Counted from the first letter of the stretch, positions 1,217-32,582 are shown. The stretch is DNA of 32,582 nt from Chitinophaga pinensis (GCA_943332105.1 CALQOD010000029.1:1-32582), one strand, 5' to 3'. Notes: generated from the sequence alone by a model not told the origin. A program made the numbers and translations.

Positions 1217-1323
1217 TTTGCAATTTATTTTCTTGAATTTTTAAAAACCAAATTCGTTTTTTGAAGTAATCGTTTTTAAACGACTATAAGTACTTATTAA
1301 CCGAATAATCTTTTTACAGCATT

Positions 1324-1343
1324 ATAATTTTGTACAAAATTAT
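1324..1343. promoter_or_regulatory. 20-bp perfect palindrome overlapping a TAnnTTTG element
   Basis: ATAATTTTGTACAAAATTAT equals its own reverse complement; TAATTTTG (1325-1332) fits the Bacteroidetes -7 consensus; 5 bp from the ATG at 1349. Confidence 0.45.
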
Positions 1344-1348
1344 TTTTC

Positions 1349-2245: not shown

Positions 2246-2248
2246 GCC

Positions 2249-3391: not shown

Positions 3392-3413
3392 TAGTAAAAT
3401 AATACAATTCTAC

Positions 3414-3440
3414 AGGCGTATCATTTGATGCGCCTTTTTT
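3414..3440 (+). terminator. Rho-independent terminator after acyl-CoA dehydrogenase
   Basis: AGGCGTATCA-TT-TGATGCGCCT stem followed by T-run (one T-G wobble). Confidence 0.7.
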
Positions 3441-3684
3441 ATATCCAGCAAATTACAACAATCATCAAAATAAAAAAACTGGCAACCGACAACAGAGTAA
3501 TCATACAACCACTTCCAACACTTGTTCGATTGTAAATTCTATTGTATGCTGCTTTCTTCGGATTGGTGAGCCATCCCCAGCCGCGTGGCGCTTTAAACCC
3601 TAAGCTATGACGAATATATCTTTTTACCGAGGTGCGTGCTGCAATGCGCTTATTAATATTGGGAATGCGAAAACCAAATTTCAT
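3439..3684 (-). CDS. Small basic protein with C-terminal transmembrane helix, unknown function
   Basis: 81 aa; Arg/Lys-rich N-terminal part (KRIAARTSVKRYIRHSLGFKAPRGWGWLTNPKKAAYNRIYNRTSV) and terminal hydrophobic helix (MITLLSVASFFILMIVVICWI). Confidence 0.6.
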   Translation of the reverse strand: MKFGFRIPNINKRIAARTSVKRYIRHSLGFKAPRGWGWLTNPKKAAYNRIYNRTSVGSGCMITLLSVASFFILMIVVICWI

Positions 3685-3704
3685 AGGGTAAAAGATTAAT
3701 ATAA

Positions 3705-3736
3705 AAATAAAAAGTCTTGTATTACTGCAAGACTTT
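3705..3736 (-). terminator. Rho-independent terminator of the TPR/barrel operon
   Basis: AAAGTCTTG...CAAGACTTT stem followed on the minus strand by TTTTTATTTTTAT, just past the stop at 3759. Confidence 0.7.
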
Positions 3737-3758
3737 ACTAAATAATATTTTTTGTTTA

Positions 3759-5507
3759 TTAGAAAGAATAGGTCAATCCTGCCATTCCAACAAAACGATA
3801 ATTTGGATAGTTGTAGTAACGGAAGTAGCGTGTGAATCCTACATTGTTTAAGCTTATAAACACCGAAAGCAATTTCGTGTAACGATAATCAACTGTCAAA
3901 TTAGCATCAACATAGCCTTTTAATTTTATTTCTTTTGTTACAAGTAAATGTGATGCTTGTGTTGTATCGATACCGATACCGTACTCCAGTCCGTTCGATT
4001 CACCAACATAGAATATATCAGCCTTTGCAAATATTTTTTCTGCTATTGCATACGATCCATGTAAGCCCGCTCGTAAAGCTGGAATATAAAGTGGCTTACT
4101 TAATTTATTTGTTTTGTAGTTATTGTATTCAATACTGATTCCTGCAGTCGTTTTCTCTGCAAATTTGTATTCTAATGCGCCAGTTGCTTTGATGTATGTT
4201 GCTTTATCATACTTAACATTAAATGTAGTTGGAAAATCGCGTAATGTGCCAGGACTTACTGTATCAACTGTGTTGTAGAAGAAAGGCATATTCGATAAGT
4301 CGGAATAAGAAGCAGATGCCGTTAAAATTAAATTGTGATCAAGCTTAATCTTAGTTCCTGCTTCAAACATAATTTTGTTGTTAGTGTTTTGAAGGAAAGT
4401 GTATTTACCCAAATATGGATTTTGATTTCCGAATGAGCGAAGGTCGTTACGTTGTAAATCGCCATTAACTTTTCCATAAACACTAAAGGTTTCTGGTATT
4501 AATTGATACGAAGCTAACAAGTAAGGATAAATTCTAAACGATCCGATATTATCTTCTGTTTCTCCTACTAAGTTAGCACCAATACTTAAGGAAGTTAGAT
4601 TCTTTTTAATATTCACTCTTGGCATAATTCTCAAAATATTTCTTGTGAATTCAAGAGCGTCTGCATTGTATTTTCCTGCATCATAAGAAACATCTAACGT
4701 AGCGTTTCCTTTGCTAACTGTTTTCTCTGCGCCAGCTTTTATCGTTATGTTATTTTCTGATGATTTATAGTTATCAGAAAAAGTATAGAATGCAGCGCCA
4801 CCATTAAAGGCAATGGCATCATCATTTTTCTTTTTGGTTTGTATCCCGAATGCCGCATTTACATCTTGTAGGATATGCTTTGTTTCTGCTTTAGAAAATA
4901 AATCCGGTGCTTTATATCCATAGTAGTGAACAAGGTCTCTTTTAAATCCTAAGTCAGCATTGATACTTAACTTATCGAAATAGCGGATACCCGTCGCATT
5001 TAGTGCATCATGGCTGTTTGATGGATTTCCATAATCTGTAATTCCACCCGTACTCGACAAGTGATTGAATCGAACTCCTGCATTAAATTCTTTCGAACGA
5101 AGCGAATTAAAATACAAATCTACCATTGGAAGATTCTCTAATCCGTAACCAGCCTTAATAAATCCCTTGTATAATTTTTTAATATTATCATCCTTGATTT
5201 TAACAGGCTTAATAGGAGAAAGATTATAATTTGAATTTATCGGCTTAGGATCTATTGAGTAAGTAAGGATAGGCGGGTTGAAAATTGATGTATCGCCTAC
5301 TGGTGTAATATTTATTTTATATGCATCATTTAAGATGGGAGTGTATTCTTTATAAACATTAATATCTTCATTGCCTAAATTCTTTGTTCCTAATTTTGTA
5401 GTGTCTGAAACTGTTTGTGCCATACTATTCATCGACACTAACAGTGTAAATATTGCTATCAAAAAACAATGGGTTGCTGTTTTATATTTTGAATTTATCA
5501 TAATCAT
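3759..5507 (-). CDS. Outer-membrane beta-barrel protein (TonB-dependent-receptor-like barrel)
   Basis: Signal peptide (ATHCFLIAIFTLLVSMNSMAQ); alternating amphipathic strands; terminal strand YRFVGMAGLTYSF ending in aromatic F. Start moved from 5522 to the internal ATG at 5507 (or 5501). Confidence 0.75.
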   Translation of the reverse strand: MIMINSKYKTATHCFLIAIFTLLVSMNSMAQTVSDTTKLGTKNLGNEDINVYKEYTPILNDAYKINITPVGDTSIFNPPILTYSIDPKPINSNYNLSPIKPVKIKDDNIKKLYKGFIKAGYGLENLPMVDLYFNSLRSKEFNAGVRFNHLSSTGGITDYGNPSNSHDALNATGIRYFDKLSINADLGFKRDLVHYYGYKAPDLFSKAETKHILQDVNAAFGIQTKKKNDDAIAFNGGAAFYTFSDNYKSSENNITIKAGAEKTVSKGNATLDVSYDAGKYNADALEFTRNILRIMPRVNIKKNLTSLSIGANLVGETEDNIGSFRIYPYLLASYQLIPETFSVYGKVNGDLQRNDLRSFGNQNPYLGKYTFLQNTNNKIMFEAGTKIKLDHNLILTASASYSDLSNMPFFYNTVDTVSPGTLRDFPTTFNVKYDKATYIKATGALEYKFAEKTTAGISIEYNNYKTNKLSKPLYIPALRAGLHGSYAIAEKIFAKADIFYVGESNGLEYGIGIDTTQASHLLVTKEIKLKGYVDANLTVDYRYTKLLSVFISLNNVGFTRYFRYYNYPNYRFVGMAGLTYSF

Positions 5508-5527: not shown

Positions 5528-8500
5528 TTATTTATTGTTATTGATATCAGTTTCTTGTTCTTTCGGTTCTTCCGGTTTAAGTAAGTCTTTCGATTCCTTA
5601 GCTTCTAATGCATTTAATTTTTCTGTTGCTAATGCTTTGATATCTTCTGGGTCTAAAGGGTCTACTTCAAAGTTTTCGATTATACTTTGTAGTGTTTGCT
5701 TGGCTTGGAATGTATCTTTTAAAGAAACGTAATTATCTGCAAGTAGGATAAACGATTTACCAATCCAGTAATCATACGATGGTACTTCGTTGATGATTTC
5801 AAAACATTTGTTTTGAGAAGCCTTGAAATTGTTTTGCTTGTATTCTATCAATGCTAGGTTGTATCGCGATTCAGCCCCAATTTCACTACTTTGTTTAGCA
5901 GTCAACTGAAACTCTTTTTTTGAAGTAGAAAAATCATCTGTAAGTAAAGCACAGCGCCCATTTGTTAGATGTGCCTCTGCTGTAATTTCATTGGAAACTT
6001 TTTCTGCAGACAATAATTTTTGAGAGTATAACAGAGCCTGATCATATTGCTTGTTATTGAAATGGCATCTCATTAATCCTGTTTGAGCATAAATAATATT
6101 GTCTCTTAAATCAGCAGTTTGCTCTAGCTTAGTATAATGTAGAATTGCTTTTTCGTATGCTTTGTTTTTGTAATTAATATTACCCGCTTTCAGCAATGAC
6201 TTTTCAGAAAATATATTTTTCGGCTGTCCAACTATTAATTCATATCCAGATAATGCCTCTCCAAATTTATTTGATCTATAATCACATTCTGATATATAGA
6301 AAGTGGCATTTAACTTAAATATTCCATTTTCAAATTGGTCTAGGTATTTTTTGAATGATATTTTTGCTTCGTCAAATTTTTGATTTAAATATTGTTGCTC
6401 TGCTGCTTCAAATGTGATTGAATCCTGCGCACTTTCACTAATGCTTACATTAGATACATTTTTAGCATACTCAAAATATTTATCTGGTGTTCCGTTTGAA
6501 ATATAAATACTTTTAATAGTAGCCAATGCTTCAGATGCTTCCGGCGATCCAGGATATTCGCTAACTACTTTTTTGAAGATATTTAACGCTTCATCATCTT
6601 CTTTATTATTAAAATAGATCAATCCAAGATTTAACTGCGCCTTCTTGGCATAAATACTATTAGGAAATTCACGTAGTAAATCATTAAATAATTTTTTTGC
6701 TTCATTAGAATTTCCTGATGACATTTGTGCTTTTCCTTGTTCGTATAATCCATCTGCCTTGAATTTTGATTTAGGGTATTGCGTGAGCAATGTATTCATC
6801 GTTGCTGTTTTACCATCAATATCTCCAAGTAATCCTTGCAAAATTCCCTTTTGAAATAATGCATAATCGCTAGATGCTGCCTGATCGTCGATAGCTTGCT
6901 GGTAATAAGGTAATGCAGGTTCAAACTGTCTCGTAACATAAAAACAATCTCCTATTCTAATTAAACAGTCATCAAATGTAGATTTAGAAACTTCTCCTTT
7001 TTTGGCTATGTATTTTCTAAACCAAGTAGAAGCTTCGTTATATTCAATGTTTTTAAAATAGGCATATCCTAAATTGTAATGGCCTAATTCGTAAAATTCG
7101 GTATTAACTGATGATGGATTGAATATGAAAATTCTATACTGTTTAGTTGCAGCTGCAAATTTATTCTGCTTGTATAGCGCCTCCGCTTTCCAATACATTG
7201 CTAATGCTCTTAAATTTTGATCGATATCATTTATAATAGCTTTTTCGAACATCGTAATAGCATTATCAAGGTAACCATCATTAAATAGTTCAACTCCTCT
7301 GTAATAGGCAACTTTTTGGTAAGCTTCTTTTGAACGGTTCGTTTTAACTTTAATGTTATCGAGAGCAGTTAGTGCGTCTTTGTAGTTTCTTGTATTTAAA
7401 TATAAAACAGCAATTAATTCGTTCGATTCATCAGCATATTTCGAATTAGGATAATTAATTAAAAAGTTTCTGAAAGCATTTAATGCTACGGGTTGAAATC
7501 CTAGTTCATACGAAAGTTTAGCGTAATTGAATTGAGATGATTCACTAATACTTGGGTCGAAGGTGTTCTTGCCAGCAAATTGAAATGCATTTCTTGCTGC
7601 CTGTTTGTTCTTCGCTTTCAAATAGCAATCTGCTAAATGGTAATATGCATTCTGACCTGTTGAGTCATTCACTTCTGTTACTTTTTCGAAATTCGCAGCA
7701 GCGGTTTTGTAGTCGCCAATATTATATTCGCAATATGCAATTGAATAACGATCATCTCTATTGATAGCAGGAACACTCGATTGGTAAGTATCAAAATAAA
7801 TTAAAGCATTTTTATAATCGCCAGAACGGTAATACGACTCTGCAATTATTCGATTAATTTCTGAAGCGTTTTGCGGATTTGATTTTTTTAGAATGTCTGT
7901 ACCGTATTTTATTACTTCGTTATATTTTTGCTGTTCAAAATACATTTGAGTAATGTAGTATGGCACTAGTGGGCTAAATGTGGCTGAAGAATCTAATTTC
8001 TTGAAATATTCTAATGCCGTATTAAAATTATTTTGAGTGTATGCAATATGTCCGTAATAATATTGTGCAGCAGTTTGGTACTTAGACTGAACTTCTAAAA
8101 TTTCATGAAATTTTTTAGATGCATTTTCTTGATCATTTTTAGCAAAATAGCAATAGCCTGATTTAAAATAATATTCTGATATTTCGTCACCAGACAAATA
8201 ATAAACATCTGCTTTTTCAAGTGCAGTCAATGATTTTCCATATTGCTTGGTTCGGTAGTACATTTTTCCTAGACAAAACCAAGCAAGAGGCGCTTTTGTG
8301 CTTTCTGGATATTTCTCAATAAAGAATTGTAGCTTGGCTTCTGCATCAGGATTAAAGAGCTCAAAAGATGATACTGCAGAGTAATAAGCCGCATTTATTT
8401 TATAGGGCAAAGCGCCCTTTAAAGAAATCGAATAGCTGTCAAACAAATCGATGGCCGCACCATATTTTTCTTTAATGAATAGCTCGTAAGCTGTTTTATA

Positions 8501-8599
8501 GTCTTTGTCGGCCTCAGTATATAATTCTGTATGCTGTGCGAATGAAATCCTAGAGCAAAGCAATCCTGCCAGGATTAAAATTTTTAGTTTATGCTTCAT
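5528..8599 (-). CDS. Exported multi-TPR protein
   Basis: Signal peptide MKHKLKILILAGLLCSRISFAQ; many TPR-type repeats (e.g. ALEYFKKLDSSATFSPLVPYYITQMYFEQQKYNEVIKY, AKKAQLNLGLIYFNNKEDDEALNIFKKVVSEYPGS). ATG at 8599 preferred over the GTG at 8611. Confidence 0.85.
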   Translation of the reverse strand: MKHKLKILILAGLLCSRISFAQHTELYTEADKDYKTAYELFIKEKYGAAIDLFDSYSISLKGALPYKINAAYYSAVSSFELFNPDAEAKLQFFIEKYPESTKAPLAWFCLGKMYYRTKQYGKSLTALEKADVYYLSGDEISEYYFKSGYCYFAKNDQENASKKFHEILEVQSKYQTAAQYYYGHIAYTQNNFNTALEYFKKLDSSATFSPLVPYYITQMYFEQQKYNEVIKYGTDILKKSNPQNASEINRIIAESYYRSGDYKNALIYFDTYQSSVPAINRDDRYSIAYCEYNIGDYKTAAANFEKVTEVNDSTGQNAYYHLADCYLKAKNKQAARNAFQFAGKNTFDPSISESSQFNYAKLSYELGFQPVALNAFRNFLINYPNSKYADESNELIAVLYLNTRNYKDALTALDNIKVKTNRSKEAYQKVAYYRGVELFNDGYLDNAITMFEKAIINDIDQNLRALAMYWKAEALYKQNKFAAATKQYRIFIFNPSSVNTEFYELGHYNLGYAYFKNIEYNEASTWFRKYIAKKGEVSKSTFDDCLIRIGDCFYVTRQFEPALPYYQQAIDDQAASSDYALFQKGILQGLLGDIDGKTATMNTLLTQYPKSKFKADGLYEQGKAQMSSGNSNEAKKLFNDLLREFPNSIYAKKAQLNLGLIYFNNKEDDEALNIFKKVVSEYPGSPEASEALATIKSIYISNGTPDKYFEYAKNVSNVSISESAQDSITFEAAEQQYLNQKFDEAKISFKKYLDQFENGIFKLNATFYISECDYRSNKFGEALSGYELIVGQPKNIFSEKSLLKAGNINYKNKAYEKAILHYTKLEQTADLRDNIIYAQTGLMRCHFNNKQYDQALLYSQKLLSAEKVSNEITAEAHLTNGRCALLTDDFSTSKKEFQLTAKQSSEIGAESRYNLALIEYKQNNFKASQNKCFEIINEVPSYDYWIGKSFILLADNYVSLKDTFQAKQTLQSIIENFEVDPLDPEDIKALATEKLNALEAKESKDLLKPEEPKEQETDINNNK

Positions 8600-8783
8600 G
8601 TTTGGGTACACCTATGGAAGTTCAAAATTACAGCTATGAAACGGCAGTAGTGAATGAATTAGTGTATTAATGCCCTATTTTATCAACAGCAAAGTGTATA
8701 TAATTAACATCGTAAACAAGTTATGTAATCGGTGCAACATAATATTTTTACCTTCGTTATAATTAGCTATTAATTTAAAAATC

Positions 8784-9626
8784 ATGAAAAAACTTTCATT
8801 AGTTCTAATTTCAATCGTTCTTTTTGCTTTTAGCTCGTGTAAGAAGGATAAGCCTGCAATTTCTGGCGACAATGATACTTCAACAAGTATTGAAAATGCA
8901 ATGTCAGATGCAGCTTTTAACGATGTTGCGAATATCGTCGATGAAGGCTATACGGGTTCTATTAGTTCATACAAAACGGCTGGGTATTCAGTGTTCTTAT
9001 CAACTTGTGCTGCTGTTACATTTGATACGACATCAAATCCTAAATCATTTAGCGTTGATTTTGGTGCTACTAATTGTTTATGCAATGATGGCAATTATCG
9101 AAGAGGGAAAATCAATGTTGGTTTTCAAGGCTTTTACAGAGATAGTGGAAGTGTGCATTCTATAACTTTTGATAATTATTTTGTCAACAACAATAAAATT
9201 GATGGTGCAAAAACAGTCACAAATAAAGGCAGAAATAGCAATGGAAAATTAACTTATGATGTTGTTATAAATGGAACAATAACCTGGGATGCTGCTTATT
9301 TTGGAAGTGTATGTACTAGCAGTTATTTAGCAAATCGCACTCGAGTTTGGAGTCAGGGTGAATCAACATTATTATGGACAGATGATGTATATCTGATTAG
9401 CGGAACACAGAGTGGAGTGACACATACTGGTTTGTCTTATTCTGCCAATACGGTCTCACCATTAAAAAAGGAAATTGGCTACCGACATATTACAGATGGA
9501 ACATTGGCTTTCACTCCGCAAGGGTTGTTTACTAGATATATCAATTATGGTTATCCGAATGGGGCTAGAGATAATTTAGCACGAGTTACTATCAATGGCT
9601 ATGATTTTGTAATTCAGCTTAAATAA
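8784..9626 (+). CDS. Hypothetical lipoprotein
   Basis: MKKLSLVLISIVLFAFSSCKKDKP: signal peptide with lipobox and Bacteroidetes-style charged residues after Cys; no domain recognised. Confidence 0.75.
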   Translation: MKKLSLVLISIVLFAFSSCKKDKPAISGDNDTSTSIENAMSDAAFNDVANIVDEGYTGSISSYKTAGYSVFLSTCAAVTFDTTSNPKSFSVDFGATNCLCNDGNYRRGKINVGFQGFYRDSGSVHSITFDNYFVNNNKIDGAKTVTNKGRNSNGKLTYDVVINGTITWDAAYFGSVCTSSYLANRTRVWSQGESTLLWTDDVYLISGTQSGVTHTGLSYSANTVSPLKKEIGYRHITDGTLAFTPQGLFTRYINYGYPNGARDNLARVTINGYDFVIQLK

Positions 9627-9640
9627 GAATTGTGGTAATT

Positions 9641-9670
9641 AAAAATGGGACGAAAATTCGTCCCGTTTTT
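9641..9670. terminator. Bidirectional terminator between convergent genes
   Basis: GGGACGAA-AA-TTCGTCCC stem flanked by A-run on the left and GTTTTTGTTTT on the right. Confidence 0.75.
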
Positions 9671-9673
9671 GTT

Positions 9674-12600
9674 TTATCGAATAATGGTTATATCTCCTGT
9701 ATCCTCGTGCTTTTTGTTGTTTACATCCTTCGTTCTAGCTCGGTAAACGTAAACTCCCGGAGGACATTCTTCATATTCGTTGAGGTATTTACCATTCCAG
9801 ACTTCATCAGCATTGGTCGTGTGCCATACAATCTGTCCTCTTCTATTGTACACCCATAATTCTAGACTTCTAATTCCTTTTGAAAATATTTGTAATACAT
9901 CATTTAAGCCATCATTGTTAGGCGAAAATGCATTTGGAAGTGTTAAATTATAAATGTCTTTAACCTCTACAGTAACAAAAGAAGAGTCAGAGCAGCCGCC
10001 AGCATTTATTGTGACAAATTTCACTATAAATGTTCCAGTGTCTTGGTAAATATGTTGCGTATAACATGCACTATCCACGGACCCATCTCCAAAGTCATAA
10101 TAACAATTTGTTCCTGGAGCAAAAGCAGTAAAAGTGATTAGCGGATTCATTGTTGTAACAACCAATGGGCTTGCTATAAATGAGGTGTTGGGTAAGCTTG
10201 TTACATTAATTGTACTCGACAGATTTTGAATTGTAGAACAGGTATCAGCGCTAGTAATCGTTAACGAAGGCTGGTAAGTTCCACCAAGCGAATAGGTGTA
10301 TGTTGGACTTGAAACAGTAGAATTATTTCCATCACCAAAATCCCATTCTAATGTTGAGCTTGGAAATGAAGGGGAGTTGTTACTGAAGTTAACTGTTACT
10401 GGAGGACAACCTCCTGTTAAGTCTGAACCAATTACTACAGAAGGATTGGGTTTGATATAAACACTATCTATATAGACATCTGCTAGGCATCCGGGCGTTG
10501 ATGTGCTAAGCGTAATTACTTGCCATCCAGTTGAGCTAAATGTCACATTACTAACAGCGGCATTTGCAGCTATTGGCGTGTTTGAATTGATGCCAAAGTT
10601 CCAATTGAATAATGCTCCAGGAACTATTGCATTCGCAGGGCTAAAATTGTAAGTGTTTCCAATTTCACATTGTGCTCCTGGTCTGTTGTACAAAGCCAAT
10701 TGAACAGGATGGACGGTTATGATAACACTGTCTTTTGAACTGCAGAAACCTTGTGTGGTAGTTACAACAAAATTAACTAGCGTATCTGCATTTCCGAAAT
10801 TAGGTACGGACGCTATTGGGTCAGATGTATTAGCATTGTTCAAGAAACTGGAAGGTGTCCAAGAATAAGTGTACCCAGGAGTAACTGGAGCTCCAATATT
10901 TACGATTTGATTTGAACATGTCGCTGCTGGACTTCCTGCATTGGCTGTGGGGTAATCCGCAACCGTTATAGTTTGTTTTGTTGTGTCAGAAGAGCAATAT
11001 GCGTCTGCTAAAACCAAATAAACCGTATAGCTCCCAGCTGATGGGAAATTAACTGTTTGTGGCCCACTTGCAGGACCTGATCCAATACCTCCATTTAATC
11101 CCCAGGTAAAAGTGGTGCCTGGTTGCTGCGTACTTCCAGTAAATGTTAAAATGGTATTATCGTTTCCACAAACTTGATTATTACTAACAGTAAATGTGGA
11201 TGTAGGATTTGCTCTGACTAAAATACTGGAAGTGTCTGATGAGCTACAACCATTAGCTGATGTTCCTGTAGCAATCCAAGAGGTTATTCCTGCTGTTGGC
11301 CATGCGAAAACGCCATTACCAGTGGTGACAGGGTTACCCGAAATAACTGTTGTTGTTCCAAAATTCCAAGTATAAGTTAATCCAGCGGGTGCGCCACTAA
11401 CAATATTATTTAATAATAGTGTGTCTCCTTCACAAACTGCCGTTGGCGCTGTAACACTAACGGTAGGGGACTGACTAATTATAATATTGTTTGAAGTAGG
11501 AAATGATAAGCATCCATGATCTTGAACGGCAAGTCCTATTGAATATGTTCCTGGAGCTGCCCATGAAATATTAAAAGATTGATTAGTAGAATTAGTTACT
11601 GTTCCAGTTCCATATGACCATCCATAAATTGCAGTACTGCTTGCATTACCTGTATAGTTAACAGGTATAGGTGTGCTGGAGCATCCTGTTGTAGGCAGAC
11701 TAAAACTAGAAGTAGGATAGTCATAAACAAATATGGTATCTCTTGTAGTATCCGATACACAACCATTTTCAGTTGCCACTAGCCATACAGGTTGTGCGCC
11801 TGAGGTGTTCCAGAATACCGTATTGGTGCCAATTCCAGTTCCTATTACACCTGCATTGTTAGGGTAGTTCCAATTATAGTTTGCTAAGAAAGAAACTGAA
11901 TTAACTGTAAAATCAACAGAAATTGGATTCGTTCCATCTGTACAGCCGCTGTTGGTGCTTACTGAAAAGGATGCCGTAGGTCTTGAAGTAACTACGATTT
12001 GGCGTGTGTAGTTACTTGAACATCCATTTGGATGATTTAGAATTAATGTTACATAATAGGTGCCTGGTCCGTAATTGTGTGAAGGATATGAAAATGGTCC
12101 TGATGCTGCACTTCCGTTTACTAACGGAGATCCATCACCGTAATCAAGCACATAACTTGTAAGATTTGAATAAGTAGAAAAATCAGAAATATTTAAGTTT
12201 AGTGAACCACAAGCCGAAGTGCTATCCACATTGAATCCTGCAGTCGGCAACATGTTTAATGCGCTGCCCCATTTCATGTTAAATCCAGAGCCTGATTCAC
12301 TGGTATCATCAATCATCAGTGCATATGTTTTACCTGAAGTAACGGTTACTGGTGGGCAAAATGGAGTAGTATTGCAATTCGTTGCACTTGCAGATAATCC
12401 AAATGGAAGAGATGGATTATAAATGTTATTACATGCTATCTCAATTCCAGGGCAACCACCACTTATATCAAACAATGCCCAACGAAATCCTCCAATACCA
12501 GAAGGGGTACAAGTAAATTCTAAAGGGGCTGTATTTCCCGGTATAAACTTATACCACATTTCGCGATTCGGCGGAGTAGAAAAACAAGAAGGGGATGCAG

Positions 12601-15463: not shown

Positions 15464-16582
15464 ATGCATAAACAACAAAAAAAAGGATTTTTATTTAAAA
15501 AATACGACGCGCCGATTCAATCTCCTTTTGATAGGCTGTTTGATATTTTTAAGGAACTTATTGTTCATACAGCTGGCGATTTCGATGAGGCGATTACATG
15601 GCTTCGCGAGATAGATGTAGAGTATAAGTTGACCGATAAAGATTATACTATTGATGATTTTATTGCGGACTTGAAAAAGAAAGGATATATACGCGATGAG
15701 ATCAATGAAGATGGTAGTGGTGGTATCGGTATTACTGCAAAAACGGAACGTGCAATTCGTCAGCAAGCCTTAGATCAAATTTTTGGAAATCTAAAAAAGA
15801 CTGGACAGGGTAATCACAAAACAAAACACGTCGGAAGTGGTGATGAACAAACAGGGGAGTTTCGAAATTATAATTTCGGGGATGGATTAGAAAGTATATC
15901 GTTGACCGAAAGTTTGCGCAATGCACAAATCAATAATGGTGTTGATGAATTTAAGTTGACTGAAAATGATTTGATAGTGGAGGAGTCGACTTATAAGGCG
16001 CAGATGAGTACAGTGCTGATGATTGATATAAGTCATAGTATGATTTTGTATGGAGAAGATCGGATTACACCTGCTAAAAAAGTAGCGATGGCATTAGCAG
16101 AATTAATCACTACTCGTTATCCGAAAGATACCATTGATGTTTTAGTTTTTGGTAATGATGCCTGGCCTATAGCAATAAAAGATTTGCCTTATTTGAAAGT
16201 AGGTCCTTATCATACAAATACAGTTGCTGGGTTGCAATTAGCTATGGATATTTTACGTCGGAAGAGAAATACCAACAAACAAATTTTTATGATTACCGAC
16301 GGCAAGCCAAGTTGTGTTCGTGAGAAAGATGGAACGTATTATATGAATTCAAACGGGCTTGATGAATACATCGTTGAACAGTGTTATAATCAAGCGGCAC
16401 AAGCACGAAAACTACATATCCCCATTACTACTTTTATGATTGCTAATGATCCTTACTTGCAGCGATTCGTCAATCGATTTACAGAAGCAAATCAAGGAAA
16501 AGCATTTTATACTGGATTAAAAGGATTAGGCGAAATGATTTTTGAAGATTATGAAACCAATAGAAAAAAGAGGATTAAATAA
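15464..16582 (+). CDS. VWA-domain protein
   Basis: MIDAS motif DISHS in STVLMIDISHSMILYGEDRITPAKKVAMALAELI; later MITDGKPS. Confidence 0.88.
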   Translation: MHKQQKKGFLFKKYDAPIQSPFDRLFDIFKELIVHTAGDFDEAITWLREIDVEYKLTDKDYTIDDFIADLKKKGYIRDEINEDGSGGIGITAKTERAIRQQALDQIFGNLKKTGQGNHKTKHVGSGDEQTGEFRNYNFGDGLESISLTESLRNAQINNGVDEFKLTENDLIVEESTYKAQMSTVLMIDISHSMILYGEDRITPAKKVAMALAELITTRYPKDTIDVLVFGNDAWPIAIKDLPYLKVGPYHTNTVAGLQLAMDILRRKRNTNKQIFMITDGKPSCVREKDGTYYMNSNGLDEYIVEQCYNQAAQARKLHIPITTFMIANDPYLQRFVNRFTEANQGKAFYTGLKGLGEMIFEDYETNRKKRIK

Positions 16583-16648
16583 CGAGTGATTTATCAAACG
16601 TTGATAATTGAATAAAAATAATTGAAACAAATTTTACAAACTCAGATA

Positions 16649-18112
16649 ATGAAAATAGATAAAATAAAAACGGTAGGTGATTTAAAAAAATCGGGATATC
16701 AATCGAAGTCAATTAAAGATGAATTAAGAAATAACTTAATTGAAAAATTAAAATCAGGCAATCCTGTATTCGAAGGTGTTCATGGATTTGAAAATACGGT
16801 TATACCTGAACTTGAACGTGCTATTTTATCTCGACATAATATTAATTTATTAGGACTTCGTGGACAAGCGAAAACTAGGTTAGCGCGTAAAATGGTGGAG
16901 TTGTTGGATGAGTATATTCCTTTTATTGCTGGTTCTGAAATTAATGATGATCCATTAAGTCCAATTTCACGTTACGCACAAAATTTAATTCAAGAAAAAG
17001 GCGACGATACTCCAATTGAGTGGCTTCACAGAAGTAATCGATTTTTTGAAAAATTAGCGACGCCTGATGTAACTGTTGCAGATTTAATTGGTGATATCGA
17101 TCCAATAAAAGCAGCTAATTTAAAATTGTCTTTTGCAGATGACAGAGTCATTCACTTTGGAATGATTCCTCGTGCGAACAGATGTATTTTTGTGATTAAT
17201 GAGTTGCCCGATTTACAAGCGAGAATTCAAGTGGCGTTATTTAATATTTTGCAAGAAGGGGACATTCAAATTCGTGGTTTTAAATTGCGATTGAATTTAG
17301 ATATTCAATTTGTATTTACAGCTAACCCCGAAGATTATACGAATCGAGGAAGTATTGTAACTCCATTAAAAGATCGTATCGGTTCTCAGATATTAACGCA
17401 TTACCCGGAGTCAGTTTCTATTGCACGAACAATTACAAGTCAAGAAGCAAAATTGCATAAGCAGCAATCTGATAGCGTTTACGTTACAAGTTTAGCAAAG
17501 GATTTATTGGAGCAGGTTTCATTTGAGGCACGTGAAAGTGAGTACATCGATAATAAGAGTGGAGTAAGTGCGCGTTTAAGCATTACGGCTTATGAAAATC
17601 TAATAAGCACTGCAGAACGTCGTGCATTAAAATCAGGTTTATCAAATACGAGTGTTCGATTGTCTGATTTTATGGGGATTATTCCTGCAATAACAGGAAA
17701 GCTAGAACTCGTATACGAAGGCGAACAAGAAGGAGCGGTAATTGTTGCGCAGCATTTAATTAATGATGCAATAAAAAGTTATTTCCCAGCCTATTTTCCT
17801 AAGATTGAAAAGTTGGAAAAGAATCCAGATAAAAGTCCGTATGCAAAAATTATTGAATGGTTTTTTAATGAATCAGGATTTGAATTATTGGACGATTGCA
17901 GTGATGCTGAATATAAGAAGCAACTAGATTTGATTAAACCACTTGATGAGCTAATTCAAAAATACCAGCCGGAGTTAGCGAAAGAAGATATTTATTTCAT
18001 CAAAGAATTTGTTCTGTGGGGATTAGTATCGTATGATAAATTGTCGAAGGATCGTATTGTTGATGGTTTTCAGTTCAGTGATATGATTGGGAATTACATT
18101 AACAAAATGTAA
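16649..18112 (+). CDS. MoxR/Mg-chelatase-like AAA+ ATPase, partner of the upstream VWA protein
   Basis: P-loop-like GLRGQAKTRLARKM, Walker B-like CIFVINELPDL, sensor-like FVFTANPEDYTNRG, DRIG. ATG at 16649 preferred over the TTG at 16622. Confidence 0.85.
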   Translation: MKIDKIKTVGDLKKSGYQSKSIKDELRNNLIEKLKSGNPVFEGVHGFENTVIPELERAILSRHNINLLGLRGQAKTRLARKMVELLDEYIPFIAGSEINDDPLSPISRYAQNLIQEKGDDTPIEWLHRSNRFFEKLATPDVTVADLIGDIDPIKAANLKLSFADDRVIHFGMIPRANRCIFVINELPDLQARIQVALFNILQEGDIQIRGFKLRLNLDIQFVFTANPEDYTNRGSIVTPLKDRIGSQILTHYPESVSIARTITSQEAKLHKQQSDSVYVTSLAKDLLEQVSFEARESEYIDNKSGVSARLSITAYENLISTAERRALKSGLSNTSVRLSDFMGIIPAITGKLELVYEGEQEGAVIVAQHLINDAIKSYFPAYFPKIEKLEKNPDKSPYAKIIEWFFNESGFELLDDCSDAEYKKQLDLIKPLDELIQKYQPELAKEDIYFIKEFVLWGLVSYDKLSKDRIVDGFQFSDMIGNYINKM

Positions 18113-18877: not shown

Positions 18878-18909
18878 TTTGATTTAACGGTTGTTTTTAA
18901 TTAAATTTG
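18878..18909 (+). promoter_or_regulatory. Bacteroidetes-type promoter (TTTG-N20-TAAATTTG) for the mntA/hepT pair
   Basis: TTTG at 18878-18881 and TAAATTTG at 18902-18909; ATG at 18915. Confidence 0.55.
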
Positions 18910-18914
18910 TTGTC

Positions 18915-19214
18915 ATGGGTATTTTAGAACAAAATATGGAAGATATTAAAAGACTTTGTGTTTTATACAATGTCGATAAGATGTATCTATTCGGTTCAGT
19001 TCTAAATTCAACTTTTAATGAGAAAAGCGACATTGATTTATTAGTTAAATTTAAATCTATGGAGCTCTCAAATTATCTCGATAATTATATCGGATTTAAA
19101 GATAAATTAGAAGATTTGTTTGGGAGAGAGGTTGACTTATTAGAAGAGCAAACCTTGCGTAATCCAGTTTTGATAAAGTCGATAAATAAATCAAAGTCTC
19201 TGATTTATGGATGA
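18915..19214 (+). CDS. mntA: MNT-family nucleotidyltransferase antitoxin
   Basis: GSVLNSTFNEKSDID matches GSX10DXD exactly; overlaps the downstream HEPN gene by 8 bp. ATG at 18915 preferred over the upstream TTG at 18891. Confidence 0.88.
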   Translation: MGILEQNMEDIKRLCVLYNVDKMYLFGSVLNSTFNEKSDIDLLVKFKSMELSNYLDNYIGFKDKLEDLFGREVDLLEEQTLRNPVLIKSINKSKSLIYG

Positions 19215-19563
19215 AAGAATTCTAAAATGGCTTTTTGATATTAAATTAAGTATTGACGAAATCGAGAGTTTTTTCGAGGGTCCAGCAAAAGATTTTTTTC
19301 AGTATAAACAGAATCTTATTCTTAAACGAGCAGTTGAACGAAATTTAGAAATAATTGGAGAAGCCGTCAATCGTATAATAACTCGTGATAATTCATTTTC
19401 AGAGAAAATAAGCAATGCCAAGGCAATCATAGGACTGAGAAATCAAGTTATACATTCTTATGATAGTATTTCTGATGAGAATATTTGGTCTGTTTTAATT
19501 AATCATCTGCCAAAGTTGAAAATTGAAATTGAAAATTTGATTTCAAACGAGTGGGAAGATTAG
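19207..19563 (+). CDS. hepT: HEPN-family (DUF86) toxin
   Basis: RNQVIHSY matches the RX4HXY motif of HepT; partner of the MNT gene. Confidence 0.9.
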   Translation: MDERILKWLFDIKLSIDEIESFFEGPAKDFFQYKQNLILKRAVERNLEIIGEAVNRIITRDNSFSEKISNAKAIIGLRNQVIHSYDSISDENIWSVLINHLPKLKIEIENLISNEWED

Positions 19564-27097: not shown

Positions 27098-27703
27098 ATG
27101 AAACCTATTTACAAAGTATTGCTGATTATCTTCGCAGCTTTCTTACTAATTATTTTTGCAGCTTACCAATTTATTGCTGGTAATTATAATATAATGGTGG
27201 CAAAAGATCTTGCTATTAAAACGGCATGGGCACAAGTAGAAAATAACTATCAGCGTCGTGCAGACTTAATCCCAAGCTTAGTAGAAACAATCAAAGGTTC
27301 CGCTAAGTTTGAACAGGAAACATTGAAGCAGGTGATGGAAGCAAGAGCGAATGCAACATCTATGAAAATAGATCCGAGTAATATTACTCCGGAGCAATTA
27401 GCAAAATTCCAGGCTGCACAAAACCAGGCAGGTGGTGCAATCAGTCGTTTGTTAGCTGTTGCTGAAAATTATCCGCAACTAAAAACTACGGAAGCTTTTC
27501 AAGGCTTGATGAATGAACTAGCTGGTACAGAAAACAGAATTTCATTCGCACGCAAAACATTTAATGAGTCGGTGCAGGATTACAACTTGGCAATAAAAAC
27601 ATTTCCTCGCAATATAGTTGCAGGCTTCTTCGGATTCCAGGAGAAAGCATTCTTTCAGGCTGATCCAGGCACTAACAAACCGGTAGTTCCTAATTTCAAC
27701 TAA
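27098..27703 (+). CDS. lemA: LemA family protein
   Basis: N-terminal TM then KTAWAQVENNYQRRADLIPSLVETIKG...ENYPQLKTTEAFQGLMNELAGTENRISFARKTFNESVQDYN. Confidence 0.93.
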   Translation: MKPIYKVLLIIFAAFLLIIFAAYQFIAGNYNIMVAKDLAIKTAWAQVENNYQRRADLIPSLVETIKGSAKFEQETLKQVMEARANATSMKIDPSNITPEQLAKFQAAQNQAGGAISRLLAVAENYPQLKTTEAFQGLMNELAGTENRISFARKTFNESVQDYNLAIKTFPRNIVAGFFGFQEKAFFQADPGTNKPVVPNFN

Positions 27704-27707
27704 GCAT

Positions 27708-28142
27708 ATGCCTAACACCGGAAGTTTAACAGAGCAAAATTTGCAGCAATTAAAAGCTGCGATTGCCAGTGCGGAGGAAAAGACTTCGGGCGAGATACGT
27801 TTATACTTAGAAGAAGAGTGCGAAACGGATGTAATGGACCGTGCGGCATTTATTTTTGAAAAGTTAAAAATGCATGAGACGGAACTTCGTAACGGCGTAC
27901 TGTTATACGTTGCATTCGGACATAAAAAATTTGCTATTATTGGCGATGCAGGAATACATCAGAAAGTAGGAGAAGAGTTTTGGAGAGCAATCAAGCAAAA
28001 GATGGTTGCATCCTTTAAAGAAGAAAAGTATGTAGATGGATTAACACTTGCCATTCAGGAAACTGGATTGGCATTATCGAGTTTTTTTCCACCTCGTGAA
28101 AATGATAGAAATGAATTGCCGAACGATGTAATCCTAGGATAG
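27708..28142 (+). CDS. TPM-domain protein without signal peptide
   Basis: AAIASAEEKTSGEIRLYLEEECE...RNGVLLYVAFGHKKFAIIGDAGIHQKVGEEFW; 4 bp after lemA. Confidence 0.85.
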   Translation: MPNTGSLTEQNLQQLKAAIASAEEKTSGEIRLYLEEECETDVMDRAAFIFEKLKMHETELRNGVLLYVAFGHKKFAIIGDAGIHQKVGEEFWRAIKQKMVASFKEEKYVDGLTLAIQETGLALSSFFPPRENDRNELPNDVILG

Positions 28143-28949
28143 ATGAAAAAACTCGGAATTATACTCGTACTTATTATTACGATGTTCAGCAATAGCTGGG
28201 CGCAGGTCGAGTATCCCAAGCCATCAGATCCTCCTCGGTTGGTCAACGATTTTACAAAAACACTTGATGCAGGTCAGGTAAAGACACTAGAAGACAAGCT
28301 GGTTGCCTTTGCAGATTCAACATCAACACAGATTGCGGTGGTAGTTATTGAGACTACAGCGGATATGCCAATCAGTGATTATACTTTTGAGTTGGGTAAT
28401 CAGTGGAAGATAGGAACTAAGGGAAATGAAAATGGGGTGTTGTTTTGTATTGCTTTAAACGATAAGCAACTTTTTATCGCAACTGGTTATGGTGTAGAAG
28501 GTGCATTGCCAGATGCATTATGCGGAAAGATTATTGAAAATGATATTCGTCCCTTTTTTAAGCAAGGAAAATACATTGAGGGTATAGACAATGGCGTTAG
28601 TAAGATTATTAATGCTGTAAAAGGTGAACCTTATAAAGCTACTGCGCAGAATAGAGGATATCGTAAGTTTAAATCGGGACCAATATTTTTTGTATTGTTC
28701 TTTTTTGTATTGATAATGCTATTTAAAGCCATTAGTGTCCGCAGGTATGCTATCAGCAATGGAATAACCTTTTTTGTAGCTTGGCAGTTATTAAACGCAG
28801 CTACTCGCACGCAGAGCGGACGATATTCCGATTTCACTCGAGGAGGTGGAAGTTTTGGTTATGGCAGTTCAAGTAATAACAGCAGCGGAGGTTTCGGCGG
28901 CTTTGGTGGTGGTGGCTTTGGTGGAGGTGGTGCTGGGGGAGGCTGGTAG
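28143..28949 (+). CDS. TPM-domain membrane protein with Gly-rich C-terminal tail (YgcG-like)
   Basis: Signal peptide; LVNDFTKTLDAGQVKTLEDKLVAFADSTSTQIAVVVIET...ENGVLFCIALNDKQLFIATGYGVEGALPD; TM; tail SGGFGGFGGGGFGGGGAGGGW. Starts immediately after the previous stop. Confidence 0.88.
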   Translation: MKKLGIILVLIITMFSNSWAQVEYPKPSDPPRLVNDFTKTLDAGQVKTLEDKLVAFADSTSTQIAVVVIETTADMPISDYTFELGNQWKIGTKGNENGVLFCIALNDKQLFIATGYGVEGALPDALCGKIIENDIRPFFKQGKYIEGIDNGVSKIINAVKGEPYKATAQNRGYRKFKSGPIFFVLFFFVLIMLFKAISVRRYAISNGITFFVAWQLLNAATRTQSGRYSDFTRGGGSFGYGSSSNNSSGGFGGFGGGGFGGGGAGGGW

Positions 28950-28950
28950 C

Positions 28951-28988
28951 CGTAAAGCAGAGTTCCGAATTTCGGAACACGCTTTACG
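28951..28988. repeat. Nested inverted repeat after the TPM gene (terminator-like or REP-like hairpin)
   Basis: CGTAAAGC ... GTTCCGA-ATT-TCGGAAC ... GCTTTACG. Confidence 0.6.
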
Positions 28989-29015
28989 TTAATTTGGTGA
29001 TTTGATAATTTGCTA

Positions 29016-29165
29016 ATTTGAAGATGTAATGAGTTGATTTTTTCGGAAGTATTTGGAATTTTAGAAATACGCTTTAGGCTACTTTGATCGCGAGGCGGTC
29101 CCTGCTTGTGCCGAGCCTGTCGAGGTAAGGCGACTCGAAGGGCTTCGAGATTTGAAGATGTAATG
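29016..29165. repeat. Two exact 16-bp copies of ATTTGAAGATGTAATG (29016-29031 and 29150-29165)
   Basis: Direct inspection; the unit between them contains CTCGAAG-GG-CTTCGAG (29134-29149). Confidence 0.6.
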
Positions 29166-29424
29166 TTGAAGCATCCTCGCGGATGTCTTCTGCATTGTGG
29201 GATGATGTGCTCCCCGAAAGTTATCTATGCTTCTAAGCGGTATTCAAAATGTTACACAGTATCAACACGTTTCAGCATATGAAACGCAAATCAGTTTGTC
29301 AATAGGCAGCAAGGGATAATTATAATCGAACGAAAAATAATTGCTATAATATCGCACCAAGCCTGAATAACTCTCATTTTTGATTTATTTAGTGAGCAGA
29401 ATTTAATAACAGAAACATTAGCAC

Positions 29425-29442
29425 ATCCCGAAGCCTCGGGAT
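29425..29442. repeat. Palindromic hairpin ATCCCGA-AGCC-TCGGGAT
   Basis: Direct inspection, perfect 7-bp stem with 4-nt loop. Confidence 0.6.
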
Positions 29443-29539
29443 CAAATTGACACATTTTCAAATTAATTTCTGCTATATTATATTTTATCTAACGGCAATC
29501 GTTGGTTTAATTAGAAATAAATCACAAAGTTTTTTTTAA

Positions 29540-29698
29540 ATAACAATATTAATCGTCGGACTTTTCTTAAACATCCTTCTTTTCACCGACCTGGAAAATT
29601 TTAAAGGTGGTGGCTCCTTGGCGGTTTTGTTTTGCTCAGTGATTATCTTGATTGTTCAAGTGATAGGTTGGGTGGTGGTGGGGAAGAGGAGGAGTTAA
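29540..29698 (+). pseudogene. Possible remnant of a small membrane protein (no ATG/GTG/TTG at the start)
   Basis: Open frame ITILIVGLFLNILLFTDLENFKGGGSLAVLFCSVIILIVQVIGWVVVGKRRS*: two hydrophobic segments, stop at 29696-29698, no canonical start before the upstream stop. Not in the ORF track. Confidence 0.35.
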
Positions 29699-29761
29699 TC
29701 TTAGAATTTTGGGGAGTGGGAGGGTTGGCGCTGTAATGTATAGAAATATTAATCAGTATAT

Positions 29762-29809
29762 TTTGGTAGTTATTATGTAAAAAGTTATATTTGATATAAC
29801 ATTTTACAT
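29762..29809 (+). promoter_or_regulatory. Promoter TTTG-N20-TATATTTG with -7 element centred in a 35-bp near-perfect palindrome
   Basis: TTTG 29762-29765; TATATTTG 29786-29793; palindrome ATGTAAAAAGTTATAT-TTG-ATATAACATTTTACAT 29775-29809 (15 of 16 positions paired); GTG start at 29818. Confidence 0.65.
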
Positions 29810-29817
29810 TTATTCGG

Positions 29818-30414
29818 GTGAGTTTATCTGATTTGCTATTTAATCCTTGGACTTCAATCGTTGTTGCTGCATTTGCTGTTTTGTATTTTGTCTATTTGAA
29901 GTACAAAACTGAAGTGTTTTTTGTTTTAACGGTTGTATGTAGATTTCTTTTGATCTTATTTAAATGGAAAAAGCGAATTAAAAAGCATGAACTTTATTGT
30001 AATACTAAGTCAATTTTTAAGGGAAGTTATTTGACAATTAATTATGACTTTGAAAATGTATTGTGGTTCGAATTTAAAGGTATTTGTCATAAACTTAATT
30101 CTGGCAAATTGACAATTGATTTAACAAATTATGATAAAAAAGAAATTTTGTTAATTGCACATGGCTTTCTTTATTCGAGAAAATATGTTTTGGAAGTATT
30201 GCCAGAAGTATCACTAAATAGCACAACCTTTTTTGTAAAAATAAAAGATTTAAATTCGATTTCTGACCAGTTGAAAATTAAAAAATTCGAGTCGTTGCCG
30301 TTTAAAATAAGCATTAAAAACTTTCTAATAAAAACTAGGCAAAGTAAGACTAGTTTTAAATTGCAAAAAATCAAAACCCAATATTCATCATTTAATTTAA
30401 AAGATAATTTATGA
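29818..30414 (+). CDS. Membrane-anchored protein of unknown function, first gene of the DUF4407 cassette
   Basis: 198 aa; N-terminal hydrophobic segments (TSIVVAAFAVLYFVYLKY, VFFVLTVVCRFLLILF) then a strand-rich soluble region; overlaps the next gene by ATGA. Confidence 0.7.
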   Translation: MSLSDLLFNPWTSIVVAAFAVLYFVYLKYKTEVFFVLTVVCRFLLILFKWKKRIKKHELYCNTKSIFKGSYLTINYDFENVLWFEFKGICHKLNSGKLTIDLTNYDKKEILLIAHGFLYSRKYVLEVLPEVSLNSTTFFVKIKDLNSISDQLKIKKFESLPFKISIKNFLIKTRQSKTSFKLQKIKTQYSSFNLKDNL

Positions 30415-31688
30415 TAAAGAGAGATTATTATGAAACTCCAAGCTCTTCAAGAGTCATGCGCGCATTATGGAAAGCTGCAGGAGGAGATAGATATATTCTG
30501 GAACGCGCTACTTATAGTGATCAAATTAAGTATATGTGTTTAGGGGGGATTGTTGTTGCTACTGGACTAATGGCAGGATTAGCTGGAGGTTATGCATTTT
30601 ATACGATTTTTTCTCCTAAATCAATTGAGGGAGAGTTACTTGATTCAATACCTCATTACTTTATGGCCATTTTGTTTGGGGTAATTTGGGGGTTGATAAT
30701 ATACAATATTGATAGATTTATTGTAACAAGTACAGGAAAGGGGGATGGAACAGAAAAAATAACTTTGGAAGAATTTAAGACAGCCATTCCAAGGATAATA
30801 ATGGGGATAATTATAGCAATTACAATATCTAAACCGATAGAAATTAGGATGTTTCAAAGTGAAATACAATCGGAATTGATTAAGAAAAAACAAGATCAAG
30901 AAAATGTGTATAAAATTGGAGTAGAAAATAGACATAAAAATAAATTAGCACTGTTGGAAAAGGATATTCAAAATCAAACTGATCAAATAAACCAAAAAAA
31001 AATAGCACTAGATTTATCAAATACTACTGCAATTGAGAAATGTGGTTCAAACAATCCTAATTGTAAATATCACATAGGAATATGGAATATCGTTAAAAGT
31101 GAAGAAAATAATTACAATACCACTAGAATAAATAATGGTAACAGAATTAATAATCTTATTATTGAAAGAGATACTGTTTTGGCGATTCAAAAGAGGGAGC
31201 TTGGGCAAGCTCAAAGTGATGGAAAAAAATTAGATGGCTTATTAGCGAGAATTAAAATTTGTCATGAAATTGCAGGTTTTTGGATAACATTATTTATTAC
31301 ATTACTTTTTGTGGCTATTGAATTAACACCAATATTTTTTAAATTGATGTTGACAAAAACACCGTATGATTATTTAACAGAAAATAGAGATGACCTTATT
31401 CGAGCAGAAAATGGCATCGAGGTTAAATATGAATATTATACTGATAAAAAGGGGATAGAAAGACATTTGGTAATTAATCATGAGGCAGAAAAATTAGTTT
31501 TTGAAAGGTCCAAACTAGCAGAAATTCAACGTGATTTGACTGAATATGCCTTACAGAAATATAAAGAGCGGGAGCAGAAGAAAATAGATGAAAACCTTGA
31601 TAACTTCATTTTTACTGACTATAAGTATGGGGACACTTTAAATGACAAAGGTGAGCAAGGTAATGACCCATTAAATCCAAATGCCTGA
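30411..31688 (+). CDS. DUF4407-like polytopic membrane protein with coiled-coil loop
   Basis: LWKAAGGDRYILERATYSDQIKYMCLGGIVVATGLMAGLAGGYAFYTIF, WGLIIYNIDRFIV, IIAITISKPIEIRMFQSEI, long Lys/Gln/Glu-rich coiled-coil, then TM4 AGFWITLFITLLFVAIELTPIFFKLML. Confidence 0.8.
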   Translation: MIKRDYYETPSSSRVMRALWKAAGGDRYILERATYSDQIKYMCLGGIVVATGLMAGLAGGYAFYTIFSPKSIEGELLDSIPHYFMAILFGVIWGLIIYNIDRFIVTSTGKGDGTEKITLEEFKTAIPRIIMGIIIAITISKPIEIRMFQSEIQSELIKKKQDQENVYKIGVENRHKNKLALLEKDIQNQTDQINQKKIALDLSNTTAIEKCGSNNPNCKYHIGIWNIVKSEENNYNTTRINNGNRINNLIIERDTVLAIQKRELGQAQSDGKKLDGLLARIKICHEIAGFWITLFITLLFVAIELTPIFFKLMLTKTPYDYLTENRDDLIRAENGIEVKYEYYTDKKGIERHLVINHEAEKLVFERSKLAEIQRDLTEYALQKYKEREQKKIDENLDNFIFTDYKYGDTLNDKGEQGNDPLNPNA

Positions 31689-31711
31689 TTAAATAGCTGA
31701 AATAATATAAA

Positions 31712-32582
31712 ATGAATTTTATTTCAAAAGTCAAGCGATTTCTTTGGATTTATTCAGGAGAAGATCCTCAGATTATAGGTTCAGATACTATCGATGAATC
31801 GGATAAGAATCTTTTCGCATTCATTGGATTGTTTGTTCTATCAATTTTCTTCGCGACTGGTATAAGTATTTATCTATTTGTGTCGAATCTATTTTACAGT
31901 TACATCTTAGATGTTTTTATATCTGCGATGGTCGCGTTGATTTTTACAAATTTATATTTGTTAACCCTATATACAATCACACCTCCTCTTTTACCAGTTC
32001 AAAAATCTATTATAATTCAAAGTAAAAGTTTTAAGTTCGTTAATATTGATATTCCAATCAACGAATTTTCTATTAGCCCTTCATTATTTTTTAGATTATG
32101 TATTTTGATTTTGTTGGCTTTATTTATAGCGCAACCTTTTAATGTTATTATATTTTCTACAAAACCAGCACATAATGAATTTGCCAAAGAAATTCAAGAA
32201 GTATTGGCAAGTAATAGTTTGACTTGGATGGTAAATATAATTTGCGGTATTTTGTTTTTGTTCCCTGTTTATCTAAAATATTTAATAAGAAGAAACACTG
32301 AATTTTATATTGGAAAACAAATTATTGAACGTAGATTTGTCGAAGATAATTATGCCGATTTTTTGAAGAATTATTCTTCAATTTTAAATTCAAAAGCAAA
32401 TTATTATAATGAACAAACTTTTAAGCGAATCTATCCAGTTTTATCTAAACTAGAAGATTTAAATAAAAATAATTTTTTGCACTATAAGAATCAAATTATA
32501 CAGGAATTAAATGATGGTGTAATTCAGAAGTATGAAAATTATAGCAATCCGCCATTCAATACTCAAAAAAAGTCAATTGTTA
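31712..32582 (+). CDS. Polytopic membrane protein, probable shortened DUF4407 paralogue (3' truncated by window edge)
   Basis: Frame open from ATG 31712 to window end, hence absent from the ORF track: MNFISKVKRFLWIYSGEDPQIIGSDTIDESDKNLFAFIGLFVLSIFFATGISIYLFV...ILILLALFIAQPFNVIIFSTK...; about four TM segments. Confidence 0.8.
   Translation, partial: MNFISKVKRFLWIYSGEDPQIIGSDTIDESDKNLFAFIGLFVLSIFFATGISIYLFVSNLFYSYILDVFISAMVALIFTNLYLLTLYTITPPLLPVQKSIIIQSKSFKFVNIDIPINEFSISPSLFFRLCILILLALFIAQPFNVIIFSTKPAHNEFAKEIQEVLASNSLTWMVNIICGILFLFPVYLKYLIRRNTEFYIGKQIIERRFVEDNYADFLKNYSSILNSKANYYNEQTFKRIYPVLSKLEDLNKNNFLHYKNQIIQELNDGVIQKYENYSNPPFNTQKKSIV

Follow-up and report, generated by a model that had tools for sequence, protein, structure and literature searches.

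What do three closely packed membrane protein genes at the very end of a contig encode, and is the unit to which they belong complete? The stretch of DNA analyzed here (the window, 32,582 nt) is the whole of contig C29 (CALQOD010000029.1) of Chitinophaga pinensis (GCA_943332105.1). A sequence-only reading had described at its end a three-gene DUF4407 cassette under one apparently regulated promoter, proposed that the three proteins form one membrane complex, and suspected an effector beyond the window edge. The genes were found as that reading had them, namely three membrane protein genes on the + strand (198, 425 and at least 290 aa), the first two overlapping by 4 bp and the last two 23 bp apart. 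The contig ends inside the third of these. The final 21 bases of the window have a single second copy in the genome, which lies at one end of contig C107, and joining C29 to C107 allows gene 3 to be read to a stop (joined position 32635), giving a protein of 307 aa. C107 supplies the last 17 aa of gene 3 and its stop, followed by two further genes, such that the supposed three-gene unit is in fact one of five genes (Table 1). The intergenic gaps are, in order, -4, 23, 0 and 5 bp; the first base of gene 4 is the base directly after the gene 3 stop, and gene 5 lies 5 bp beyond gene 4. The cassette is apparently transcribed as a single transcript.

If the join were false, genes 4 and 5 of C107 would not be downstream of the window, and it is the case that C29 and C107 are separate in the assembly and overlap by just 21 bp. 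Against this, the 21-mer is confined to the two contig ends, the C-terminus of gene 3 after the join (FLNLIYNQE) agrees with homologues, resembling that of the L011 homologue (LLDFIYNQEL), and the same gene order is present at nine other loci. We consider a false join exceedingly improbable and the five-gene anatomy of the cassette well supported, to the point of near certainty. (Past gene 5, C107 carries a gene for a 158-aa membrane protein and then HipB/HipA-like genes, at L018:3165-4687, approximately 0.8 kb downstream of gene 5.)

Table 1. Features of the cassette, its upstream region and a second type of DUF4407 gene pair. Plain coordinates refer to the window; L018 is on C107 of the same genome.
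Feature	Coordinates	Strand	Description
Non-coding stretch, TPM-domain gene to cassette	28950-29762	.	Short direct and inverted repeats; boundary, not working part
Promoter	29763-29793	+	TTG (29763-29765), 20-nt spacer, TATATTTG (29786-29793)
Palindrome, probable operator	29775-29809	.	35 bp; 16-nt arms, 15/16 complementary; 3-nt spacer
Gene 1	29818-30414	+	198 aa, GTG start
Gene 2	30411-31688	+	425 aa, DUF4407
Gene 3	31712-32582 (open at window end)	+	290 of 307 aa in window; divergent DUF4407 paralogue
Gene 4	L018:7792-6032 (outside window)	-	586 aa, transglutaminase-like
Gene 5	L018:6026-5532 (outside window)	-	164 aa, DUF350-like
DUF4407-type gene and gene for ~1150-aa protein	L073:4490-6019 and 803-4261; L075:6157-7722 and 8003-11470		Pair in two genomes

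The repeat-rich non-coding stretch and the one promoter-like site that had been described upstream of the genes are both present. Some pieces of the non-coding stretch, 33-65 bp in length, recur at other places in the genome with 78-90% identity, and the repeats look like ordinary dispersed intergenic repeats. The promoter agrees with the Bacteroidota -33/-7 pattern; it is also a weak sigma-70-like match, of a kind no commoner than in shuffles. Overlapping the promoter is the top-scoring palindrome of the window, equaled in 0 of 500 Markov shuffles, whose 17-bp core occurs once in the genome. Because the palindrome is centered on the -7 element, it is more suggestive of an operator than of an RNA hairpin. 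The description of the promoter as apparently regulated has thereby gained a concrete basis, although regulation itself is something that we infer. The palindrome was not found in the upstream regions of eight other cassette copies, and the candidate operator is thus not conserved. (Directly before the non-coding stretch lie a LemA-like gene and then two TPM-domain-type genes, at 27098-28949, which are outside the cassette at other loci. Elsewhere in the window are a probable MNT-HEPN toxin-antitoxin pair, as judged from sequence only, with a nucleotidyltransferase gene followed by a HEPN/DUF86-like gene at 18891-19214 and 19207-19563, and a vWA-type gene adjoining a MoxR/chelatase-type ATPase gene at 15464-18112.)

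The products of genes 1, 2 and 3 are predicted to have two, four and four transmembrane (TM) helices, respectively. Gene 2 was confirmed as DUF4407 (PF14362; E 2e-59, 201.7 bits against a gathering score of 31.3). The window copies of genes 1 and 3 had no Pfam match, and NCBIfam gave no matches for any of the three window genes. Missed by the sequence-only reading, along with the two genes downstream, was the relationship of gene 3 to DUF4407. A profile of gene 3 aligns with that of gene 2 (hhalign 98.2%, E 4e-14), and two gene 3 homologues match DUF4407 in Pfam above the 31.3-bit cut-off, that of L002 with 60.7 bits (E 1.8e-16) and that of genome G211 with 37.8 bits. These profile comparisons make gene 3 the second DUF4407 gene of the cassette, and a divergent one. 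(Weak gene 3 matches in G191 and G036 were spurious, being a stop-containing ORF or an unrelated locus.) The segment between helices 3 and 4 is 143 aa long in gene 2, 184 aa in gene 3 of L002 and just 22 aa in the gene 3 of the window. A structure prediction for gene 2 made from two sequences was poor (pLDDT 55) and fairly confident in a helical hairpin alone; the helix 3-4 segment of gene 2 is predicted as a long helical hairpin on the periplasmic side. No fold match to the predicted structure was obtained with Foldseek at E ≤ 0.001. Matches to ABC transporters (TM-score 0.1-0.24) were discarded as a product of long helices, as was a DUF4407-MotB PDB profile match (E 0.014) that fell mostly within a predicted coiled coil. 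Gene 1 encodes two predicted TM helices and then a basic domain that is probably beta-rich, and it has homologues in L002 (29%, E 2e-16) and L011.

The effector suspected past the window edge has a candidate in gene 4, which carries a transglutaminase-like domain. The protein consists of a cytoplasmic-type N-domain, three close TM helices and a C-terminal enzyme-like domain, with an extra hydrophobic stretch at the extreme N-terminus in the window genome. Across eight diverse homologues, with identity down to 24%, the C-terminal domain has invariant G-D-C-D, H and E-(T/L)-T motifs, in the order of a Cys-His-acidic triad with Glu as the acidic residue; in the gene 4 of the window genome the candidate residues are Cys504, His532 and Glu557. 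The gene 4 of the window genome has no Transglut_core (PF01841) match, and every homologue tested scored below the 23-bit Pfam cut-off, the L029 homologue at 21.1 bits (E 3.9e-4) and the L028 homologue at 14.4 bits (E 0.048). The top PDB profile match was to LapG (4fgo) and was weak (E 0.7, not significant), and the BTLCP/peptidase C93 family of LapG was absent from Pfam scans of the homologues. From its motifs and weak profile matches, we regard gene 4 as a putative membrane-anchored enzyme of the transglutaminase/cysteine-protease type. Single-sequence AlphaFold of the L002 gene 4 gave an unusable model (pLDDT 39). In L027, gene 4 (L027:7327-9237) begins with a DnaJ domain (Pfam, E 6.8e-23), which implies that a chaperone would be recruited on the cytoplasmic side. 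Moreover, since three TM helices follow the N-domain and the J-domain at the L027 N-terminus is of a cytosolic type, the enzyme domain would lie outside; in L028, where gene 4 has two clear TM helices only, the topology would be ambiguous. Gene 5 is, by profile comparison, a four-helix relative of DUF350 (PF03994). Against a gathering score of 26, the L029 relative scores 73.6 bits (E 2e-20) and the L028 relative 21.5 bits; gene 5 of L002 has no DUF350 match in Pfam.

The transglutaminase-like C-terminal domain of gene 4 might instead be catalytically dead and serve for binding, and the cassette would then be a membrane assembly resembling a transporter or scaffold. The third residue is Glu where Asp is usual, the Pfam scores are under the cut-off, and the cassette consists largely of membrane protein, all of which fit such an idea. 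The invariance of Cys, His and Glu among homologues so diverged would, however, be unexpected at a dead site, and we judge this explanation very unlikely.

The order gene 1, DUF4407, second DUF4407, transglutaminase-like gene, DUF350 recurs at ten loci in at least eight families. Assignments that rely, in part or in full, on position and size are those of gene 1 in L027 and L028, where the position-1 genes could not be aligned with gene 1 by profile and are placed by position only, of gene 3 in L028 (86%) and L115, and of gene 5 in L027. The plain five-gene order is also found at L002 (from a Paludibacter-labelled MAG), L011, L012 and L027; an extra gene, X, precedes gene 4 at L028, L112, L113 and L115; and L117 has the swapped order gene 1, DUF4407, X, second DUF4407, transglutaminase-like gene, DUF350. 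Gene X encodes a TM protein that in L028, L112 and L115 has an OmpA peptidoglycan-binding domain, which ties this variant to the cell wall, and that in L113 and L117 ends in a different, short C-terminal domain. A profile alignment (hhalign 91-92% over approximately 40 columns) indicates that the N-domains of genes X and 4 are probably related. In profile searches the transglutaminase-like and DUF350 genes were adjacent at 13 loci, among them L116, which has no DUF4407. L029 and L030 have the pair reversed, with DUF350 followed by the transglutaminase-like gene (L029:7649-9138; L030:7804-9291) and likewise without DUF4407, and this two-gene unit, from two genomes of another class, is possibly the ancestral core. 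The cassette has apparently not been described before. The literature that we searched, which included few subscription papers and preprints, held no description of it and no link between DUF350 and a transglutaminase in such a cassette, and in the parts of that literature seen DUF4407 was found as a bare annotation in expression tables.

The idea of a single system had been staked on homologues of genes 1 and 3 being found next to DUF4407 genes elsewhere, and they do adjoin cassette-type DUF4407 genes, with the order kept. The survey of DUF4407 neighborhoods proposed by the same reading gave a conserved order for cassette-type copies; it does not extend to DUF4407 as a whole, as the majority of Bacteroidota DUF4407 genes stand alone, outside any such cassette. 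Of 396 Bacteroidota genomes sampled, 121 have a DUF4407 match above the Pfam cut-off. A first profile detected gene 4 in 6 of the 396 (weakly in two of the six), and a broader, domain-only profile detected it in 44 of 388, about a dozen of these being strong; the five members of the window genome's family within the 388-genome sample had no gene 4 by the broader profile. The neighborhoods of solitary DUF4407 genes showed no conserved partner, and the cassette can thus not be inferred from DUF4407 in general. (A different pairing occurs in two genomes, where a DUF4407-type protein of approximately 510-520 aa is followed by a membrane-anchored protein of approximately 1150 aa, as listed in Table 1. 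At L072:4198-7284, a DUF4407-like protein of approximately 1029 aa is encoded near kinase-like and PP2C-like phosphatase genes.)

The DUF4407 proteins of the cassettes fall into a single clade (99/96; a value as low was reached in 0 of 500 shuffles), with solitary copies outside it, and a solitary copy accompanies the cassette copy in genomes G211 and G503. Branching within the clade disagrees with taxonomy, in that two genomes of one family (f29) fall in different subclades, and two of another (f23) each group with other families. The GC content of the cassette is 26-31%, versus 35%. The L002 copy is on a conjugative element, with RteC upstream of the cassette, and four further upstream genes are common to L002 and L011. 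Taken together, the clade, RteC, the low GC content and the patchy distribution argue that the cassette is mobile and has been transferred between distantly related Bacteroidota. Relatives of gene 4 or DUF4407 were not found in viral contigs, nor were relatives of gene 4 in phages; plasmids had no gene 2 and, for gene 4, one remote partial match, in Halorubrum. These near-empty searches do not point to phages or plasmids as the home of the cassette.

Several copies have defense genes close by, as seen at individual loci. DndC is encoded downstream of the L002 cassette together with DndF, DndG and DndH, and both L011 and L111 have downstream a pair consisting of a MazG-like protein and an SLFN-g3 (Schlafen) helicase; L011 also has an RdrA-like ATPase as a neighbor. 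A NACHT protein next to L112 is partly like a protein of L028, which is itself like a protein of L117, and L117 has MoxR-type and vWA/DUF2201 genes as neighbors. The L027 copy has no obvious defense neighbors, and genes 1-5 gave no matches in PADLOC-DB 2023.

How might the five proteins act together? In the mechanism that we propose, the two DUF4407 paralogues would form an inner-membrane hub, and gene 1, as a small membrane-linked protein, would probably be a cytoplasmic sensor or adaptor. Gene 4 would place a Cys-His-Glu enzyme domain in the periplasm, tethered by TM helices to a beta-rich domain in the cytoplasm, with the DUF350-type gene 5 as its constant partner. The hub would restrain the enzyme until a signal arrived from the cytoplasm or envelope, such as membrane damage caused by a phage or other element; the freed enzyme would then cleave or cross-link an envelope target, and the outcome would be envelope remodeling or self-limiting damage. 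The periplasmic location, complex formation, gating, trigger and target are all what we infer. That the cassette encodes a mobile DUF4407/DUF350 envelope complex restraining a periplasmic cysteine-protease-like effector is a reading we hold tentatively, at somewhat less than an even chance. In its more specific form, which is possible and which we hold more loosely still, the cassette would be an undescribed mobile anti-invader system of the Bacteroidota envelope, in which a hetero-DUF4407/DUF350 hub fires the periplasmic transglutaminase-like enzyme and a modular slot, between or on the constant parts, takes an OmpA anchor, another periplasmic domain or a J-domain fusion.

A role in stress repair is nearly as likely as one in defense. 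The cassette might be an envelope-stress maintenance complex, whose hub senses strain in the membrane or cell wall and whose enzyme trims or cross-links envelope proteins for repair in the manner of PspA-network operons. DUF350 (YjfL) proteins are known from PspA/polyamine envelope-stress operons (PMC11237479), several cassette copies include the OmpA peptidoglycan-binding proteins, an SH3_3-domain gene is directly upstream of the L011 cassette, and solitary DUF4407 genes, which are common and lie on the chromosome, point to a housekeeping function of the domain in the envelope. The cassette itself, however, is rare, patchy and moved between families, unlike housekeeping systems; defense genes adjoin several copies; and no PspA-like gene was noticed when the translated neighborhoods were read. 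On balance we find stress maintenance doubtful, if far from negligible. It is a good deal less probable that the cassette is a surface-remodeling switch, in which the enzyme cleaves an outer-membrane adhesin or controls the capsule and so alters attachment or the exposure of a phage receptor. LapG, which the gene 4 domain faintly resembles, frees an adhesin (PMC4359373), and HvyA of Caulobacter, a BTLCP protein of the periplasm with a Cys-His-Asp triad, blocks capsulation and so shifts phage sensitivity (PMC4241560). The LapG match falls short of significance, however, and at the loci examined neither a conserved adhesin or capsule gene next to the cassette nor a c-di-GMP receptor was seen.

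The cassette links one separate clade of DUF4407 proteins to a putative enzyme whose catalytic residues can be identified, which opens a domain of unknown function to experiment. If it is a defense or stress system, it would add to the small set of these that act from the periplasm.

The cassette can be compared with several known systems. Solitary DUF4407 proteins of Flavobacteriaceae and their relatives share the domain and topology of gene 2, but they belong to a separate clade and have no conserved partners. The DUF350/YjfL operons of the PspA network likewise place a four-helix DUF350 membrane protein within a multi-gene envelope operon; the cassette, in contrast, shows no PspA, CesT/Tir chaperone, spermine synthase or ATP-grasp gene, and the account of those operons mentions neither DUF4407 nor a transglutaminase (PMC11237479). 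The membrane-associated conflict systems of multicellular prokaryotes (PMC7159879) resemble the cassette in their protease-type domains, TM segments, OmpA anchors and MoxR/vWA or STAND neighbors; they differ in that the cassette is without a constant NTPase, and none described there has DUF4407 or DUF350. HvyA is secreted, lies outside any such cassette and has Asp in its triad, but it too is transglutaminase-like, with conserved Cys and His, and shares the periplasmic location that we presume for the gene 4 domain. In the LapD-LapG system (PMC4359373), a transglutaminase-like protease of the periplasm is under the control of a receptor in the inner membrane. The enzyme of the cassette is membrane-tethered, whereas LapG is soluble; the hub of the cassette is formed by DUF4407 and DUF350, its triad would contain Glu, no large adhesin was seen, and GGDEF, EAL and HAMP domains were absent from Pfam scans of the cassette proteins. 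The two would nevertheless share an inside-out logic, in which an inner-membrane assembly controls a transglutaminase-like cysteine protease on the periplasmic side.
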